In this document: piece after piece, positions 1-44,689 of the stretch
How the letters are laid out: each line of letters starts with the position of its first letter
How positions within the stretch are numbered: position 1 is the first letter of the stretch
From: Aquincola tertiaricarbonis
GTDB taxonomy: Bacteria > Pseudomonadota > Gammaproteobacteria > Burkholderiales > Burkholderiaceae_C
Assembly: GCF_023573145.1 (NCBI RefSeq)
Contig: NZ_CP097638.1
Span: 1-64,000 of the forward strand
Length of the DNA stretch: 64,000 nt
Reading direction: 5' to 3'
Translations under genes and position numbers: made by a program
The notes under the pieces: generated by a model
The model's database searches: none
What the model saw: the letters and a program-made list of their open reading frames with translations, nothing else
Told to the model about the DNA's origin: nothing

Positions 1-2528
1 ACTGCATCCGCCAGAGAGAGTTCGACGGCTCGCATCTGAAGCTGCCGGGCTTTTCGCAATGCTTCGAGCTCCACGCGAGCCAACGCAACGCGATCTGGCG
101 CGTCGTGCAGTCCGGCAACACCGGGCTGTTTCACGCAGTGGGCGCGGGCAAGACGGCCATCATGGTGGCCGCGAGCATGGAACTGCGCCGCCTGGGCCTG
201 GCCAACAAGCCGGCCCACATCGTGCCGAACCACTGCCTCGAGCAGTACGCCGCCGAGCTGGTGCGCCTCTATCCCTCCGCCGCCGTGCTCATGGCGACAA
301 AGGAGGACCTGGCCGGCGACCGCCGGCGGGAGTTCGTGGCGCGGGTGGCCACCGGCGACTGGGATGCGATCGTGATGACGCACTCCACCTTCGAGCTGCT
401 GCCCATGTCCGCCGGCTTCACCGCCGACTTCATCAAGGACACCATCCGCGAAATCGAAATGGCGGTGCGCATGTGCAGCGCGGACAGCCGGTCCAACCGG
501 ATCGTCAAGCAGCTCGAGCGCATGAAGAAGACCTGGAAGATCCGGCTCGAACGCCTGGAGAACCAGGATCGCAAGGACGACTTTCTCTGCTGGGAAGCAC
601 TGGGGGTCGACTGGCTTGCGTACGACGAGGCCCACTCGGCCAAGAATCTGTTCCGCCACACCAAGATGGCACGCATCGCAGGCCTGCCGCTGAGCAACTC
701 GCAGCGCGCGTTCGACCTGTACCTGAAGTCGCGCCACACGATGAGCCTCTACCGAGGCGAGCACCGTGGCGTGGTGTTGGCCACGGCGACCCCGGTGGCC
801 AACAGCATGGCAGAGGTTCACACGTTCCAGCGCTTCCTGCAGCCCAACACGCTGCGCTCGCTGGGGCTTGAGCAGTTCGACGCCTGGGCCGCCACCTTCG
901 GGGAGACGGTCACGGCGCTGGAGATTGCGCCTGATGGCAGCGGCTATCGCCTCAACACCCGGTTCGCGCGCTTCATCAACGTGCCGGACCTGATGACGGT
1001 GTTCTGCGACGTGTCGGACATCCGCACCCGCGAGATGCTGAAGCTTCCTGTGCCGATCCTGAAGGGCGACAAGCCCAGAACGGTGACGTGCAAGCCAAGC
1101 GAGCAACTACGCGCCTTCGTGCGATCGCTCGTGAAGCGGGCCGAACGCCTGAAGACGGCGCACGTGGACCCGCGCGAGGACAACATGCTCATGATCGCCA
1201 GCGAAGGCCGCCTGGCCGCGCTGGACATGCGACTGATCAACGGCCGCCAACCAGCCGACCCCGGCGGGAAGGTGGCGCAGTGCGCCCGAGAGGTGCACAA
1301 CATCTGGCAGGAGACTGCGAGCCTCAAGAGGGCACAACTGGTCTTCTGCGACCTGTCCACTCCCAAGAGTGGCATGGCGTTCAGCGTCTACCAGGCGCTG
1401 CGCGAAGAGTTGATCGAGCTGGGCCTGCCGGCCGAGCAGATCGCTTTCATCCACGATGCCGAGACCGACTCGCAGAAGGCACGCCTGTTCCGCCAGGTGC
1501 GCGAGGGCAAGGTTCGTGTCCTGCTCGGTTCGACCCCGAAGATGGGCGTCGGCACGAACGTGCAGCGGCGCCTCGTGGCCCTGCACGAACTCGACTGCCC
1601 ATGGCGCCCGTGTGACGTGGAGCAGCGCGAGGGCCGGATCCTTCGCCAGGGCAACGAATGTGCCGAGGTGGAGATCATCCGCTACGTCACCGAAGGCAGC
1701 TTCGACGCGTACAGCTGGCAGACGGTGCTCACCAAGGCCAAATTCATCGCGCAGGTGATGAGCGGGGACAAGGGCATCCGGTCCGTCGAGGACGTCGAGC
1801 TCGCAACACTGACCTACGCGGAGGTGAAGGCACTGGCGTCGGGCAATCCGAAGATCATCGAGAAGGCCGGTGTCGACGCGGAGATCGCAAAGTACGCCTC
1901 GCTGCTGTCCGTGTGGCGCAACCAGCGCTACGCGAACGAATCCGAAGTGGCCGGCCTGCCGATGCGCATCGAGAGCAACGAGCGGCTGCTCGCAGCCCTT
2001 CAGGCTGATGCCGAACGGGCGCATGCGGTTCTCGGATCGGACCTGGTGGTCAACGTCCACGGACGCACCTACCGCGGTCGTGAAGAGATCGGCGAAGTGC
2101 TTCGGGCCACGGTACGAAGCGCGAGGGCATCGATCTCGCGGTCCGCGCGGGACGAGGTCATCGGCACCGTCGGGGCTTTCGAACTGTGCGTGTTCATCGG
2201 ACGCGCAGAGGACGAGGTGCATCTGTTCGTGCGGGGCGCGAGCTCACACGAATGCAGGCCATGCCAGACCGGACCGGCACTCCATGCCTCCTTGGTCGAG
2301 ACGATCCGCGAGATCGCGCCGCACCGCGATGACTGCGCCCAGCGGCTCGCGAGGATGCGATCGAAGCTCGAAGGCCTTGCGGCTGAACTGCAGCGGCCGT
2401 TCGAGCACGAGGACCGCTTGGCCGCGCTGATCGCGAGGCAGCGTGAGCTCGAAGCCGAGTTGGACCTTGGCAAGGACGAAGTCGGCAGCAACGCTGTCGA
2501 GGATGTCCCGGAGCAAATTGCAGCTTAG
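1..2528 (+). CDS. SNF2/DEAH-type plasmid helicase, C-terminal part
   Basis: The reading frame is open from the first base, so the start lies outside the window; the GTG at 105 is internal. Superfamily 2 helicase motifs are visible in order: a Walker A loop (HAVGAGKTA, near base 140), a DEAH box (YDEAHS, bases 621-638), motif III (ATATPVANS), and motif VI (EQREGRILRQGN, near 1620-1655) in a RecA-like second lobe containing GVGTNVQ. The C-terminal ~250 residues are rich in charged, helical sequence. This matches the helicase half of large plasmid/ICE helicase-methylase proteins; whether a methylase half precedes it cannot be seen. It probably remodels or translocates on DNA during plasmid transfer or maintenance, which is inference. 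It faces rep convergently and has its own terminator. Confidence 0.8.
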   Translation, partial: CIRQREFDGSHLKLPGFSQCFELHASQRNAIWRVVQSGNTGLFHAVGAGKTAIMVAASMELRRLGLANKPAHIVPNHCLEQYAAELVRLYPSAAVLMATKEDLAGDRRREFVARVATGDWDAIVMTHSTFELLPMSAGFTADFIKDTIREIEMAVRMCSADSRSNRIVKQLERMKKTWKIRLERLENQDRKDDFLCWEALGVDWLAYDEAHSAKNLFRHTKMARIAGLPLSNSQRAFDLYLKSRHTMSLYRGEHRGVVLATATPVANSMAEVHTFQRFLQPNTLRSLGLEQFDAWAATFGETVTALEIAPDGSGYRLNTRFARFINVPDLMTVFCDVSDIRTREMLKLPVPILKGDKPRTVTCKPSEQLRAFVRSLVKRAERLKTAHVDPREDNMLMIASEGRLAALDMRLINGRQPADPGGKVAQCAREVHNIWQETASLKRAQLVFCDLSTPKSGMAFSVYQALREELIELGLPAEQIAFIHDAETDSQKARLFRQVREGKVRVLLGSTPKMGVGTNVQRRLVALHELDCPWRPCDVEQREGRILRQGNECAEVEIIRYVTEGSFDAYSWQTVLTKAKFIAQVMSGDKGIRSVEDVELATLTYAEVKALASGNPKIIEKAGVDAEIAKYASLLSVWRNQRYANESEVAGLPMRIESNERLLAALQADAERAHAVLGSDLVVNVHGRTYRGREEIGEVLRATVRSARASISRSARDEVIGTVGAFELCVFIGRAEDEVHLFVRGASSHECRPCQTGPALHASLVETIREIAPHRDDCAQRLARMRSKLEGLAAELQRPFEHEDRLAALIARQRELEAELDLGKDEVGSNAVEDVPEQIAA

Positions 2529-2542
2529 TCGCTGAGCGCCCT

Positions 2543-2575
2543 GCCCCACTGCACATGCAGTGGGGCACTTTTTTT
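2543..2575 (+). terminator. Rho-independent terminator after the helicase gene
   Basis: The arms GCCCCACTGC (2543-2552) and GCAGTGGGGC (2557-2566) form a 10-bp perfect stem with a 4-base loop, followed by a run of T at 2569-2575. It lies 15 bases after the helicase stop codon. There is no T-run on the minus side, so it serves the plus-strand gene only. Confidence 0.85.
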
Positions 2576-2597
2576 GCCCGTCCGGTTGCGGTGAGTT

Positions 2598-4037
2598 TCA
2601 GCCCGCGTCGCGTTCGCTGCCGACGTCGATCGCCATGAGGCTCTCGAACTCGGCCAACGGCAACGTCGCCCAGTCATCGCCCAGCTCGCTCTTCGCGTAG
2701 TGCTGGATCACCATCACCTGAACCAGTGGCGACTGCCACTCGCCGCGTGCGAGACGCTTCATGATGCTGGGGCTGGGTGCCGTGGTCGCGTCCGCCTCGT
2801 CGCGTACCCGCCGCACCCACTCCATCTGCTCCTCCGCATCCAGCTTGGCGAACTGGTCGCGGATCAGGCTGAAGCGCCGGTGGCGCTCGGCGTCCTCCGC
2901 ATCACGGCGCGAAGCGGGCACCGCTGGCGCCGCCTTGCTCTCAACGACAACATGGGCCGACTTCTCCGGTTCTGCGCCCTGCCCTGTCGACCCATCCTCG
3001 CGCGCCTTGTTCGCGATGATCGTGCGCAGGTAGGCTCCGGCATTGCCGATGCGCGGGCGGTCCGCTCCACTCAGGAAGCGCTCGTAGCGTTCGAGTCCTT
3101 CGGTCACGGCGGCGACGCCATAGCCGCGCTCGAGTTCCTCGATGACCGTGTCGCGGATGCTCAGCTTGCCACCCCGCAGGATGTTCGTGACATCGGGTGG
3201 CACCGGCGCGATCCGCTCGGGGCGCCGCGCACTCTTCTTGACCGCGAACTGAACGAACTCGACTTCGCGGCCGCGCCTGAACTCGATCAACTCGATCTCG
3301 ATGTCGCCTAGGTCGTTGATCTCCTTGATGGCGGGCGCGACGAACTCGTTCTTGAATTTGCGCCACGCGCGGACCTTGGAGGTCGGCGAACTTCGCAATG
3401 ACTCGGCCCACCAGGACCAATGCTGCCGACTGGTGACGCCCGCGGGGCTGTCGCGGTAGCGCGCGCAGATCTCGTAGAGCGCCACCGCGCAGTAGGTGGT
3501 CAACTGGCGCAGCACCGCAAAGTCGACCTGGGCCCAGCGCGAGGGGCTCACCAGTTCTTCCCGGATGGACGGCGGGTAGTACCAGGTTACCCAGTTCTCG
3601 CCCGCGCGCTTGTAGACGCGGACCTCGGCGAGCAGGTTGAAGATGCGAAGCTCGTCGGTGATCTGCGCCGGCGAGCCGCCCTCTTCCTTTCCGTCGATCC
3701 CGAAGGTCAGCGGCAATTGCTGCTCGGACTTCGACAGCGGCCTCCACTCGACCTTGGTCGACACCATCTGGTCGATGTACTTCTTTGCATCGCTGGAGAT
3801 GCTGTTGGTCGCACCGAAGCCGCGAAGGATGGAATTCAACGGCGCAGCGAAGCCGCCGTCTGCACCCTCTGTTCCGGCCGCTGCCTGCATCTGGGCAAGA
3901 TGCAGCATGACCGAGTACGCTTTGCGTCCAGTGACTGTCAGCGATCGGTTGGTCGGCACGATCGCCAGGGCGATGACGGACTTGTGCAGCATGCCCTGCA
4001 CCACATCCATCTGCCTCACGATTGCCACACTGCCCAT
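2598..4037 (-). CDS. Plasmid replication initiator, Rep_3-like
   Basis: This 479-residue protein resembles large Rep_3/RepA-type initiators with tandem winged-helix domains. The N-terminal half carries the initiator signature (VPTNRSLTVTGRKAYSVML), and the second winged helix lies near LTTYCAVALYEICARYRD. The C-terminal ~150 residues are charged and variable, as in other Burkholderiales plasmid initiators. It would bind the iterons just upstream (4292-4362) and open the AT-richer DNA. Its ATG at 4035-4037 faces the origin, and the gene is divergent from parAB across the origin, the usual layout of an iteron replicon. The family call rests on sequence character and context. An alternative is a relaxed RepA relative without iteron dependence, but the repeats beside it argue against that. 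Confidence 0.75.
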   Translation of the reverse strand: MGSVAIVRQMDVVQGMLHKSVIALAIVPTNRSLTVTGRKAYSVMLHLAQMQAAAGTEGADGGFAAPLNSILRGFGATNSISSDAKKYIDQMVSTKVEWRPLSKSEQQLPLTFGIDGKEEGGSPAQITDELRIFNLLAEVRVYKRAGENWVTWYYPPSIREELVSPSRWAQVDFAVLRQLTTYCAVALYEICARYRDSPAGVTSRQHWSWWAESLRSSPTSKVRAWRKFKNEFVAPAIKEINDLGDIEIELIEFRRGREVEFVQFAVKKSARRPERIAPVPPDVTNILRGGKLSIRDTVIEELERGYGVAAVTEGLERYERFLSGADRPRIGNAGAYLRTIIANKAREDGSTGQGAEPEKSAHVVVESKAAPAVPASRRDAEDAERHRRFSLIRDQFAKLDAEEQMEWVRRVRDEADATTAPSPSIMKRLARGEWQSPLVQVMVIQHYAKSELGDDWATLPLAEFESLMAIDVGSERDAG

Positions 4038-40864: not shown

Positions 40865-41068
40865 ATGTCAAACGAGGGCTATCACGAACCCATCGAGGAA
40901 CTCAGCGACGACGTGCGCGACATGCACCGTGCGATCGTGTCGCTGATGGAGGAGCTGGAGGCAGTGGATTGGTACAACCAGCGCGCCCATGCCTGCAAGG
41001 ACCCGGTACTCAAGAAAATTCTCGAGCACAACCGCGACGAGGATGTTGAGATCCACGAACCCCACTAG
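40865..41068 (+). pseudogene. Encapsulated ferritin-like protein, 3-prime end lost to a transposon
   Basis: The first 59 residues closely match encapsulated ferritins (EncFtn) of Rhodospirillum: HRAIVSLMEELEAVDWYNQR carries the ferroxidase glutamate (E32) and tryptophan/tyrosine (W36, Y37), and HNRDED begins the second helix. Family members run on with E-x-x-H and ~35 further residues plus a tail that targets the encapsulin shell. Here the left end of the TniABQ element (TGTTGAGATC at 41044) interrupts codon 60, and a stop arises in the transposon. No encapsulin gene is seen on either side. The first shell helix alone cannot form the ferroxidase dimer. Confidence 0.85.
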
Positions 41069-41256
41069 CCATGTCCACGAACCGTGCTAGCGAGACCTGC
41101 GGCTAAGGTATTGATTCAACAAGGAAATTCGGGTTCTGAACCCTCTCGTCGTCCGTTGCGAGTTGACCACAACACGTGACACCGAGTCCACGAACCTCGC
41201 TATTGCATTTGGCGTGTCCATGAAGCATGCTACTGGCGCATTTGTGAGGTGAACGG
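41044..41256. repeat. Left-end transposase binding repeats of the compact element
   Basis: Four related blocks with core CCACGAAC or CCATGAAG and a following CTA are found between the left terminus and tniA (near 41054, 41073, 41191 and 41218). They share the motif TGTCCACGAAC-C-GTGCTAGCG. The tniA promoter must lie among them, so TniA binding could repress its own synthesis. Confidence 0.75.
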
Positions 41257-42867
41257 ATGCAGTCGCCCCATGAGATCGGCGAACGTGAAGTCCGGATCGC
41301 TCGCGTGCTGAGGCCGTTAGGCCGAGGTCCCATGAGACGCGAGCAGGCCGAGCGCGCGGGCCAACTGCTGGGTGTCCACTGGACCACGGTCTATCGCCTT
41401 CGTGCTCGATTTCTGGCGGATCCGAGAACGTCTGCGCTGGTACCGGACGCGGGAGGCCGCCGCGGCGAACCCTGGCGGCTGGCGCCTGCGGTCGAGGCGA
41501 TCGTCTCGTCGGTCGTCGAACAGTGGTTCCCGCGGCAGCGCGAGCTCGCACACCCCGTGCTGGACACCTTCAACGAGGTTCGCCGGCGCTGCACGGAACA
41601 TGGTCTCGTGGCGCCGTCACGCAACACGGTGGCGCGCAGGCTGCGTTCGCACCGCGGCCAGGAACTCCAGCATCTGGCCTCTCTCCCAGGCGCTGCAATC
41701 GCGCCCGGCAGCTTCGGAGCGGACTGGCCGTTGGAGATCGTGCAGATCGACCACACCCAGGCCGACGTCCTCATCGTCGACCGCTTCACCCGCAAGGTCA
41801 TCGGCCGCCCCTGGCTGTCGGTGGCCATCGATCTGGCCACGCGCACGGTCCCGGCCTTCTTCATCGGCATGGAGCGGCCCGGTGCCGGCACCGTGGCCCT
41901 CCTGGTCAGCCGCATCGTCCAGCCCAAGGCGGCCTGGCTGGCTCACCTGGGGCTGCAGATCGACTGGCCGATGGCCGGCCTACCGCAGCGGCTGCACCTG
42001 GACAACGCGGCCGAGTTCCGCAGCCGCGCCCTTCGCCTGGGCTGCGCTCAGTACGGCATCGAGCTCGACCACCGGCCGGTCGGCCGCCCGAACTATGGCG
42101 GCCACATCGAGCGCATGAACCGCACGCTGATGCAGCGGCTGAAGGGTCTGCCCGGCGCCACCGGCAACTCGCCGCGCGGCCGCAAGGCGCGCAAGCCCGA
42201 ACAGCGCGCCTGTCTGACCTTGGAGGAATTCGAGCGTTGGCTGGCCCTCGAAGTCGGCGAGCGCTACCACCACAGCGAGCATCGGGGCCTGTTCCGCTCC
42301 ACCCCCTTCTCGGCATGGCAGTCACTGGTTGAACAGCGTGCCCCACGCCAACTTGCGCCTGGGCCCGATGAGGCCATGAAGCTGCTGATCAACTTCATGC
42401 CGCTGGCCCACCGCTCGATCCAGGCCGATGGCCTGACCATTTTCTACATCCGCTACTGGAACCCCGTGTTCGTCGTCTGGCGCGAACAGCGGCAGAGGGT
42501 GAGGGTGCGCTACCACCCCGAGGACCTGTCGAGGATCTTCGTCAGCGCCGACGGGCGCAACTATGTGCAGGCGAACTACGCCGACCTGCGGCGCCCTCGC
42601 ATCACGCTGTGGGAGCAGCGTGCCGCCGTGCGAGCCCTCAGGGCGGCGCATGTGCCCCGGGTGTCCGAAGAGCATGTCTTCCGCGCCATCGGTGCGCAAC
42701 GACAGATCGTGGAGCAAGCCGAGCGATCGGCACGCCGGGCGCGCCGCAACTCGAAGGCGCCACCAGCGGCGCCTTCGCCTGAACTTCAGACCCGCGATTC
42801 TGGGCAGCCGACGGAAGTGGACTACAGCAAACCGGTGACACCTTACGCCGTGGAGATCTGGAAGTGA
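41257..42867 (+). CDS. tniA: TniA/TnsB-like DDE transposase
   Basis: This 536-residue transposase has two N-terminal helix-turn-helix segments (LGVHWTTVYRLRARF; SRNTVARRLRSH), an RNase H-like core with D165 (QIDHTQAD), D249 (LHLDNAAEF) and E285 (GHIERMNRTL) in an exact D-35-E spacing, and a Mu-type C-terminal domain. Its length and core match Tn5053/Tn402 TniA and type V-K TnsB. It would bind the CCACGAAC repeats. It overlaps tniB by an ATGA-type junction (42864-42867). Confidence 0.9.
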   Translation: MQSPHEIGEREVRIARVLRPLGRGPMRREQAERAGQLLGVHWTTVYRLRARFLADPRTSALVPDAGGRRGEPWRLAPAVEAIVSSVVEQWFPRQRELAHPVLDTFNEVRRRCTEHGLVAPSRNTVARRLRSHRGQELQHLASLPGAAIAPGSFGADWPLEIVQIDHTQADVLIVDRFTRKVIGRPWLSVAIDLATRTVPAFFIGMERPGAGTVALLVSRIVQPKAAWLAHLGLQIDWPMAGLPQRLHLDNAAEFRSRALRLGCAQYGIELDHRPVGRPNYGGHIERMNRTLMQRLKGLPGATGNSPRGRKARKPEQRACLTLEEFERWLALEVGERYHHSEHRGLFRSTPFSAWQSLVEQRAPRQLAPGPDEAMKLLINFMPLAHRSIQADGLTIFYIRYWNPVFVVWREQRQRVRVRYHPEDLSRIFVSADGRNYVQANYADLRRPRITLWEQRAAVRALRAAHVPRVSEEHVFRAIGAQRQIVEQAERSARRARRNSKAPPAAPSPELQTRDSGQPTEVDYSKPVTPYAVEIWK

Positions 42868-43733
42868 TCGTGCGCGAGCGCTCCCACCTTCATCCCGCAG
42901 CGAGGCAGATGCTCGACCTCGACGACGAGCAGCGGGTGCGGGCGTTGCGGACCGACCGCTGGATCGACTACCCACGTGCGACGCAGGCGCTGCAACGGCT
43001 GCAACGGCTCCTGGACACCCCGCAGCGCGAACGCATGCCGTGCATGCTGCTGCACGGTCCGTCCAATATCGGCAAGACGCTGATCGTGGCCAAGTTCCTT
43101 CGTGAACATCCGCCTGCCTTCGACGCTGTGCGCGGCGTCGAGCACAGACCCGTGATCAGCCTGCAGATGCCGCCGTCTCCCGATCAGCGGCGCTTCTACC
43201 GGGCATTGCTGACGGCAGTGGGGATACCTCAAGGCCCGAACTCGACCTTGGCGAGCCTAGAGCAAGTGGCTTGCGACATCCTGCGCCGAATAGGGCCGCG
43301 GCTGTTGATCGTCGACGAGGTGCACCACCTGCTGGCTGGCAGCGCACGGGAGCAGCGCGGCTCGCTGAACTTGCTGAAGTACCTCTCCAACGAGCTCAGG
43401 ATGGCCATCGTTGCGGTCGGCACGAGCGAGGCGCCGGTGGCGTTCCAAAGCGACGCCCAGATCCACAGCCGCTTCACGCCGCTGGAGTTGCCCCGCTGGA
43501 GCGAGAGCGAGGAGTTCCGCCGCCTCCTGGCCGCGTTCGAGGCGGCACTGCCGCTGAAGCGGCCATCAGAGCTGACCCAGCGCCCGCTGGTGCAGTACCT
43601 GAGTGCGGTCAGCGGTGGGCTGCTTGGCGAGGTCTCGCGGCTGCTCAACGATGCGGCCGAGGCCGCCATCCGAGACGGCAGCGAGCGCATCACCCTGGGG
43701 CATCTCGAGCATGTGGCAAGTCGGCCGTCGTGA
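42864..43733 (+). CDS. tniB: TniB/TnsC-like AAA+ ATPase
   Basis: This 289-residue AAA+ protein has Walker A LLHGPSNIGKT and Walker B RLLIVDEVHHLL, with a sensor asparagine/threonine in AIVAVGTSEAP and an arginine-rich HSRFTPLELPRW. Size is as in Tn5053 TniB (~300) and V-K TnsC (~276). It would polymerise on target DNA marked by TniQ and activate TniA. The stop lies 23 bases within tniQ. Confidence 0.9.
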   Translation: MIVRERSHLHPAARQMLDLDDEQRVRALRTDRWIDYPRATQALQRLQRLLDTPQRERMPCMLLHGPSNIGKTLIVAKFLREHPPAFDAVRGVEHRPVISLQMPPSPDQRRFYRALLTAVGIPQGPNSTLASLEQVACDILRRIGPRLLIVDEVHHLLAGSAREQRGSLNLLKYLSNELRMAIVAVGTSEAPVAFQSDAQIHSRFTPLELPRWSESEEFRRLLAAFEAALPLKRPSELTQRPLVQYLSAVSGGLLGEVSRLLNDAAEAAIRDGSERITLGHLEHVASRPS

Positions 43734-44247
43734 TCGACCCTGGCCTGTGGCGCATCGACCGTTTGAAGGCGAGGCCTTTGGTAGCTGGTTCGGCCGCATG
43801 GCATCGCGCTATCGATTGACGGTCGATGAGCTGGCGTCATCGGCGGGAGTGACGGAGATCTTCGCCGACGGGCAACTCTCGTGGCTTGAGGTGCCAGCGC
43901 CCAGGGGAGGGGGCTGCGAGGTTCTGGCAAGGCTTGCCCGCGTGAGCAACGAAATCATCGCTGCGCTCGGTCCGCAGGGGCCCCTGCCGAGTAGACAGGA
44001 CCTCCCGTTCTGCCACTCCTGCTTGTTCCTCAATCCCTTGGATGTCACGGCGCCATGCTGGCCAGCTGGTTGGTTGCACGGGCACGAATTCGTCTGCAAC
44101 AAGCATCCCGGCGAATCGAGCTGGGTGGGAAGGTCAACGCTGCGCAAGCATCGCAACATGGGCCGGCTCTTGAGCTACCTCAGCCGGCGTCGGCAAGCGG
44201 CCAACAGGCACCGGCATCTCGATTGCAGGGTCCCGCGGCGTCGATAG
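43711..44247 (+). CDS. tniQ: Short TniQ target selector
   Basis: At 178 residues this TniQ is much shorter than Tn5053 TniQ (~405) or TnsD (~500) and close to the ~167-residue TniQ of type V-K CRISPR-associated transposons. It starts with the TniQ signature (PFEGEAFGSWFGRMASRYRLTVDEL) and has one zinc-binding block: C101-x2-C104, GWLHGHEF, C129-x2-H132. It ends in a basic tail (RKHRNMGRLLSYLSRRRQAANRHRH). The ATG at 43711 overlaps tniB by 23 bases. The frame ends inside the right-end repeat, so the protein is not obviously truncated. No cas12k or CRISPR array is within the element. Confidence 0.8.
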   Translation: MWQVGRRDRPWPVAHRPFEGEAFGSWFGRMASRYRLTVDELASSAGVTEIFADGQLSWLEVPAPRGGGCEVLARLARVSNEIIAALGPQGPLPSRQDLPFCHSCLFLNPLDVTAPCWPAGWLHGHEFVCNKHPGESSWVGRSTLRKHRNMGRLLSYLSRRRQAANRHRHLDCRVPRRR

Positions 44248-44290
44248 CGCAGTTCGTGGACACGATTAGCAAGGTTTGTAGATCTCAACA

Positions 44291-44689
44291 GGTGCCATCG
44301 CGTCGACGCAGGTGCCGCATCGCAGCGGTGGCGTGAGCGTCGAGGACTTCGCCGAACTGCGCAGCCAGGCGTCGGACTACAACCTCAAGCTCGTACTGGC
44401 CGCGCGCGGCAGCGGCGCCTACCTGGCCGATGTCGACGTCACGGTTCGGTCGCTGCCGTCGCGCGAGGTTGTGCTGGAGCACCGCACCGACGGCCCGCTG
44501 CTGCTGGCTGCGCTGCCGGCCGGCCGCTACGAGGTGACGGCCAGTTTTGCGGATGTGCTTCCCGGCGCACGCGATACGTTGACCCGCGTCATCCAGGTGC
44601 CGCGCAGCGGCCTGGTGCGCTCGGTCATGTACTTCGACACCGGCGACGAAGTCAGCGCGGAGTCGCCCTCCGCCTACCGCTTGAATTGA
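44291..44689 (+). pseudogene. Exported carboxypeptidase-regulatory-like protein, 5-prime truncated
   Basis: The open frame begins in the transposon end, and the protein sequence is recognisable from GAIASTQVPHRSGGVSVEDFAELRSQ, as if the cut lies within or just after a signal peptide. The rest (DVDVTVRSLPSREVVLEHRTDGPLLLAALPAGRYEVTASF) is a beta-sandwich domain of the carboxypeptidase regulatory/DUF type, ending at YRLN. With signal and start codon lost, a protein could only be made from the GTG at 44312. The family has no certain function. Confidence 0.7.

Follow-up and report, generated by a model that had tools for sequence, protein, structure and literature searches.

We analysed the first 64,000 nucleotides of contig NZ_CP097638.1 of Aquincola tertiaricarbonis, here called the window, and focused on a complete 3,247-bp Tn7-like transposon at positions 41044-44290 and on its relatives in other genomes. 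The element contains only tniA, tniB and tniQ, which fill its length. Our main finding is that target duplications are missing from its delimited copies, a point absent from the preliminary description of this DNA. A second copy in the same genome (G000:C1:915852-919099; 98% identity over bases 1-3247, identical terminal bases) and two copies from metagenome-assembled genomes, L008 and L009 (identical ends, 97% and 96% DNA identity), confirm the boundaries of the minimal, cargo-free 3.2-kb element that had been described; its open reading frames (ORFs) are as stated there, with a tniA of 536 aa, a tniB of 289 aa and a tniQ of 178 aa. The features of the element are listed below, with their evidence in brackets.

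41044..41093, + strand: left terminal inverted repeat, begins TGTTGAGATC (inverted-repeat scan; boundary identical in the second genomic copy, L008 and L009)
41052..41067, + strand: left end block 1, TniA-binding-site-like repeat, 1 mismatch (pattern match)
41074..41089, + strand: left end block 2, exact match (pattern match)
41187..41202, + strand: left end block 3, exact match (pattern match)
41217..41232, + strand: left end block 4, 2 mismatches (pattern match)
41257..42867, + strand: tniA, 536-aa DDE transposase, TnsB homologue (ORF, Pfam, motifs)
42864..43733, + strand: tniB, 289-aa AAA+ ATPase, TnsC homologue (ORF, Pfam, motifs)
43711..44247, + strand: tniQ, 178 aa, short form with one zinc-finger motif (C101, C104, C129, H132), ATG at 43711 (profile search, alignment)
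44241..44290, - strand: right terminal inverted repeat, ends GATCTCAACA (inverted-repeat scan; second copy)
44245..44260, - strand: right end block 2, 1 mismatch (pattern match)
44267..44282, - strand: right end block 1, 2 mismatches (pattern match)

The ends also proved to be as first described, an inverted repeat with four blocks on the left and fewer on the right. The terminal inverted repeat spans 50 bp (41044-41093 against 44241-44290, 78% complementary), with TGTTGAGATC at either end, and the end-block pattern TCCACGAACCNNGCTA, with at most 2 mismatches, matches six times in the whole window, four times on the left and twice on the right and nowhere outside the element ends, against 0.23 matches expected from 100 shuffles. 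Repeat arrays at both ends and TGT/ACA termini are features of Tn7-like transposons, as is the protein set found here, a DDE transposase of the TnsB/TniA type with Mu-transpos_C, a TnsC/TniB ATPase and a TniQ. TniA matches Mu-transpos_C above the Pfam cut-off and rve below it, and carries IDHTQAD (164-170), HLDNAAEF (247-254) and GHIERMN (282-288), which we take to be its DDE motifs. TniB has a Pfam match at an E-value (E) of 5.9e-68, with a Walker A-like GPSNIGKT at 65 and a Walker B-like LLIVDE at 147. The Pfam match of TniQ is weak and, taken alone, below threshold (E 0.0026, 18.8 bits against a cut-off of 27). Neither a CRISPR-like nor a tandem array was found at the element, Cas12k is absent among its ORFs, and Rfam gave no match to the element down to E 0.1, in line with the earlier statement that it has no CRISPR component. 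A TniR resolvase with a res site was likewise not found among the ORFs of the window copy; the other copies were judged by their length of 3.05-3.30 kb, which the three genes fill, leaving no room for cargo, TnsA or a resolvase.

A search for related loci returned 36. Among the best 40 of 4,871 plasmid records in a tblastn search, 22 matched at 51-57% TniA identity, followed by a drop to about 40%; their hosts are Burkholderia, Paraburkholderia, Cupriavidus and Caballeronia. Judged by these sequence relatives, the element is a member of a Burkholderiales family. A TniA match at E 1e-100 occurred in 7 of 399 genomes of the window's family (5 of the 7 at 39-44% identity, hence not all of the same clade), in 5/65 genomes in the genus of Burkholderia sp. 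SRS-46 and in 16/144 in that of Paraburkholderia rhynchosiae. Across these samples the element is sparse, with mostly one copy per genome.

We delimited a set of 34 copies, either from their inverted ends or through full-length alignment to a copy with such ends, and duplications were not a criterion. They measure 3,045-3,299 bp, about what tniA, tniB and tniQ need, L014 being shorter through an internal loss in the tniB region. Loci that repeat a counted copy (in brackets) or come from the same strain or record were left out: L168/L187 (L078), L172/L190 (L079), L174/L192 (L081), L178/L196 (L076), L044/L088 (L016), L169 (L188), L170 (L189), L173 (L191), L175 (L193), L176 (L194), L177 (L195), L179 (L197), L153/L165 (L198) and other re-found loci. 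Also left out were loci without two delimitable ends (L013/L155, L018/L164, L019/L167, L039, L041, L042, L080, L084, L166, L171, L180-L183) and the fragments L185 and L223-L225. One of these fragments, L223 (W01:C1:45500-52500, on a plasmid of B. cepacia ATCC 25416), is a deletion derivative with element bases 1-445 and 3042-3288 split by an insert of ~2.45 kb. The same plasmid holds two more left-end fragments (1-674 and 1-587), the first of which is also present in a B. ambifaria plasmid.

Flanks of the 34 copies

A 5-bp target duplication is characteristic of Tn7 and all its relatives, according to an excerpt of PMC11406308. Among the 34 copies, not one has an exact flanking repeat of 3-12 bp. 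The flanks of the window copy are listed here.

40865..41043, + strand: encapsulated-ferritin (EncFtn) gene, interrupted by the left end (profile positions 2-58 of 85)
41039..41043, no strand: GAGGA, the 5 bp flanking the left end, which do not recur at the right end
44291..44295, no strand: 5 bp outside the right end, GGTGC (flank table)

The window copy thus has no duplication (GAGGA against GGTGC), and over the 34 copies a left 5-mer agrees with the right 5-mer of its own copy at a mean of 2.09 of 5 positions, against 2.01 after random re-pairing (P 0.34). The flanking 5 bp nevertheless share the palindromic consensus SCWGS on each side: C stands at position 2 in 21/34 left and 21/34 right flanks, A or T at position 3 in 24 and 27, and G at position 4 in 24 and 25. 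A 5-bp consensus at each end suggests that the 5-bp stagger itself has been kept. The preliminary description had suggested that other copies be tested for a shared target motif and for target duplications; the former exists in this 5-bp form, and the latter are absent.

Several copies are flanked on their two sides by parts of different genes. L075 interrupts a LysR gene on its left, which retains the N-terminus, and adjoins a transposase-like C-terminus on its right; L072 has the C-terminal part of an MFS gene on the right and an amidohydrolase-like start on the left. The transposase-like and amidohydrolase-like parts were named by reading, and they are among the three of nine flank gene fragments without a Pfam match, the other six being named by Pfam. 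Elsewhere we found an FAD oxidoreductase without its start (right flank of L184), a left flank in mid-Transposase_mut (L186) and the C-terminus of a group II intron maturase (right flank of L191). Many of the remaining flanks appear intergenic or were not inspected gene by gene. Taken together, the lack of duplications in all 34 copies, the SCWGS consensus at each end and the positions between parts of different genes argue that the two ends of one copy stem from separate insertions.

The flanks inspected revealed no target gene in common, and an all-against-all comparison of the 1,500-bp flanks gave one shared junction, which fits an untargeted element. Some copies lie near integrase genes (the second copy in the window genome, L074, L079 and L080). 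At that second copy (L007 7853-11100), a tyrosine-recombinase-like gene runs into the left end, and the other side has a short reading frame adjoining a MerR-type regulator, named by reading.

The EncFtn protein is intact in relatives. At E 0.01, neither a further EncFtn match nor any encapsulin match was found in the window genome, although an EncFtn remnant of 27 positions could escape this search. With only the N-terminal part of the EncFtn gene and no encapsulin match, the iron-storage compartment may have been lost from this genome.

TniA phylogeny and the short TniQ

In a TniA tree of 51 rows, from which L073 was omitted as too short, the 18 rows with a short TniQ form a clade with 100/100 support. 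This clade nests in a larger one (97/96) that also takes in Tn402 and elements from alpha-proteobacteria, and the three TnsB rows from type V-K CRISPR-associated transposons (CASTs) fall outside it on a branch of length 2.23. Because the tree carries the program's long-branch warning, we take from it only the separation from V-K. The element looks related to the Tn402-type branch of Tn7-like transposons, as a cargo-free, insertion sequence-like derivative.

The TniQ is genuinely short. It is intact by profile search in 32/34 delimited copies, L016 and L193 being frameshifted, so a local truncation or frameshift, or a shortened copy of a longer homologue present in other insertions, is ruled out; in the 17 loci for which a start codon was chosen it always measures 160-183 aa. 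It thus differs from the full-length TniQ (~400 aa) of the Tn5053/Tn402 family. Residues C101, C104 and C129 of its zinc-finger motif are invariant, and H132, probably the fourth ligand, is present in 12/14 sequences. In an hhalign comparison with a Tn402-type TniQ profile of seven sequences, the short TniQ aligns to positions 3-140 of 372 (E 5.1e-17); against V-K TniQ the value was 2e-5, from a single V-K sequence and hence not on equal terms. On the simplest reading, the short TniQ would be a Tn402-type TniQ minus its C-terminal part, lost inside the Tn402 branch. An AlphaFold2 model (mean pLDDT, the predicted local distance difference test score, 64.6) has a helical N-terminal part at low confidence; its best Foldseek match, ShTniQ 7oxd at E 0.33, was given no weight.

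These results bear on the idea, raised in the preliminary description, that the element has CAST-like protein sizes and may be related to the pre-CRISPR state of V-K CASTs, one of three possibilities given there. TniQ length is indeed similar, TnsA and a resolvase are absent from both, and the nearest solved structures by sequence are those of ShCAST for TniQ and TnsB. The make-up of TniQ differs, however: the 170-aa V-K TniQ of Gloeothece has a CxxC..CxxH finger followed by a second, CxxC..CxxC finger, and the short TniQ keeps only the first. Moreover, the nearest solved TnsC is that of I-F3 Tn6677 and not of ShCAST, in a field with few solved relatives, the short-TniQ clade groups with Tn402 while V-K sits on a separate long branch, and TniQ is nearer to the N-terminal part of the Tn402 type. 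We therefore regard a pre-CRISPR relationship as extremely improbable.

Origin of the unmatched flanks

The only shared junction joins L078 (on the B. cepacia ATCC 25416 plasmid) and L086 (B. arboris), whose left flanks are identical over 4,777 bp and whose right flanks are unlike. The first 2,266 columns of the two elements are identical, and 26 differences fall in the remaining ~1,020; this is a homologous crossover between two copies inside the element, which rules out an adjacent deletion as the cause of the difference. The right flank of L086 recurs in a plasmid of B. anthina, which carries a copy of its own at a distance of about 20 kb, and the right flank of L078, from base 63 on, in plasmids of B. 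cenocepacia, B. ambifaria and B. dolosa. The pair of copies in the window genome also looks mosaic: they differ at 2 sites in tniA, at 15 in tniB and at 34 in tniQ, and the last ~250 bp of the window copy differ from the second copy, L008 and L009. L014, L015 and L191 diverge unevenly, partly through the deletion in L014.

Such exchanges raise the possibility that recombination alone accounts for the flanks: ordinary insertions would have produced 5-bp duplications, and later homologous recombination between copies would have swapped flanks everywhere, so that transposition need not be replicative or unusual. The L078/L086 crossover, the mosaic pair in the window genome and the uneven divergence of L014/L015/L191 speak for it. 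A complete lack of duplications in 34 copies would, however, be extreme for a low-copy element, and L186, L189 and L082, which occupy different sites and are 1.4-2.3% apart with evenly spaced differences, lack duplications without a visible mosaic, although a crossover between near-identical copies would be invisible. We consider this explanation somewhat doubtful.

Alternatively, a single event could join the two ends, independently of one another, to different target sites, so that the intervening DNA is deleted on insertion. SCWGS at both ends, yet no copy with the same 5-mer twice, is compatible with this, as are the interrupted genes that several copies have on one side or on both. L078 and L086, which share one junction and differ at the other, rather fit a crossover or old-plus-new flanks, and we know of no Tn7-like element that joins its ends to separate sites in this way. 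Such a mechanism seems very unlikely to us.

We favor, with some confidence, a model in which replicative transposition without resolution, followed by rearrangement, explains the duplication-less copies of this cargo-free Tn402-branch element. TniA and TniB would join both ends to the loosely preferred 5-bp core SCWGS without gene-specific targeting. Because TnsA is lacking, the element is expected to move by copying, through a Shapiro intermediate to a cointegrate, and because a resolvase is lacking as well, extra copies and fused or broken DNA would be left behind. These products would be processed by homologous recombination between copies, and intramolecular transposition may delete or invert adjacent DNA. 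The flanks of a surviving copy would then date from two separate events, one for the left and one for the right, hence no duplication and interrupted genes. In our view crossover and transposase-made rearrangement, the latter inferred, are both at work, each as a consequence of copy-in transposition without resolution. Cointegrate formation by TnsA-less relatives is described in parts of PMC11406308 and PMC8649781.

Several observations weigh against replicative transposition without resolution. In the two genomes inspected we saw neither a cointegrate nor an inverted pair whose 5-mers match: the 5-mers of the window genome's two copies do not pair, and Burkholderia sp. SRS-46 has two copies in opposite orientation, one of them a diverged remnant. 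Homologous crossover, and not a transposase-made deletion, accounts for the sole pair that shares a junction, and most genomes have one copy and thus few recombination partners. We also failed to recover an empty site for the window copy. Clear matches to EncFtn and to the right-flank gene occurred together in just one of 60 relatives, G073, where they fall on different contigs. The control elements are few and mixed as well. Scanning 18 relatives gave convincing ends in L021 and L025 (the ends of L022 are contig ends and not judgeable), eight further relatives gave L201, L202, L203 and L205, and Tn402 in R751 was added separately; both scans ranked end candidates with duplication included and are thus biased toward finding duplications. 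Of these seven, L203, which has a resolvase, and L021, on a short contig with no resolvase seen, show a 5/5 duplication, and five do not: L201, L202, L205, L025 and the resolvase-bearing Tn402 in R751 (L207 34478-38967), whose flanks, CAAGA and GGTCA, are no 5-bp duplication with the ends found here. The missing duplication is therefore not cleanly tied to a missing resolvase, and a contrast with resolvase-bearing elements is not established on these controls. Nor is it tied to the short TniQ, since the duplication-less controls, four of five of them alpha-proteobacterial, include elements with a longer TniQ (annotated in L201 and L205; 405 aa in R751).

A broader and more tentative possibility is a Tn7-like family with rearrangement as its normal life cycle, which, lacking TnsA and a resolvase and having a TniQ cut back to its first modules, would move mainly within its own replicon or join its ends to separate sites, would delete, invert or fuse DNA, and in which clean duplicated insertions would not persist.

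Comparison with known systems

In searches of open-access papers we recognised no account of this Burkholderiales family, of its one-finger TniQ or of the missing duplications. Among the closest known systems is the family of Tn402/Tn5090 (R751) and Tn5053, which shares the TniA-TniB-TniQ order, the TGT ends and the 97/96 TniA clade. The short-TniQ element differs in having neither TniR nor cargo, in a TniQ of 178 aa against 405 aa in R751, and in that no res-site or other shared target was seen for its family; the R751 copy is likewise without a duplication.

The TniABQ elements of alpha-proteobacterial plasmids (L201, L202, L205 and kin) are similar in size, with 3.7-3.8 kb between their ends, and L201, L202 and L205 lack duplications, making three of the four with convincing ends (L201, L202, L203 and L205). 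They differ in an annotated TniQ of 348 aa (L201) or 314 aa (L205) and often adjoin a site-specific recombinase gene. In L199 and L201-L206, TniAB(Q) repeatedly adjoins the gene of a tyrosine or serine recombinase, giving the impression that recombination sites are targeted.

Tn5469, which an excerpt of PMC11406308 describes as cargo-free, with a single TniQ and apparently untargeted, resembles our element in these three respects; it is cyanobacterial, and the likeness is taken from its description.

Type V-K CASTs of the ShCAST kind share the short TniQ and the lack of TnsA and a resolvase. The element differs from them in having no Cas12k or CRISPR, a TniA in another branch and one TniQ zinc finger instead of two. 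In the sections consulted, PMC8649781 places Tn5053 and V-K in clade 3 of Tn7-like elements and describes TnsA-less branches and resolution by RecA or in trans, and PMC11406308 describes V-K transposition as replicative and calls it unknown whether these systems handle cointegrates in their native hosts. Copies that all lack duplications and keep a 5-bp consensus are a natural record of what may befall a copy-in transposon unable to resolve its products, and the one-finger TniQ may help to ask about roles of TniQ beyond targeting. This record is relevant to V-K CASTs, which are also without means of resolving their products.

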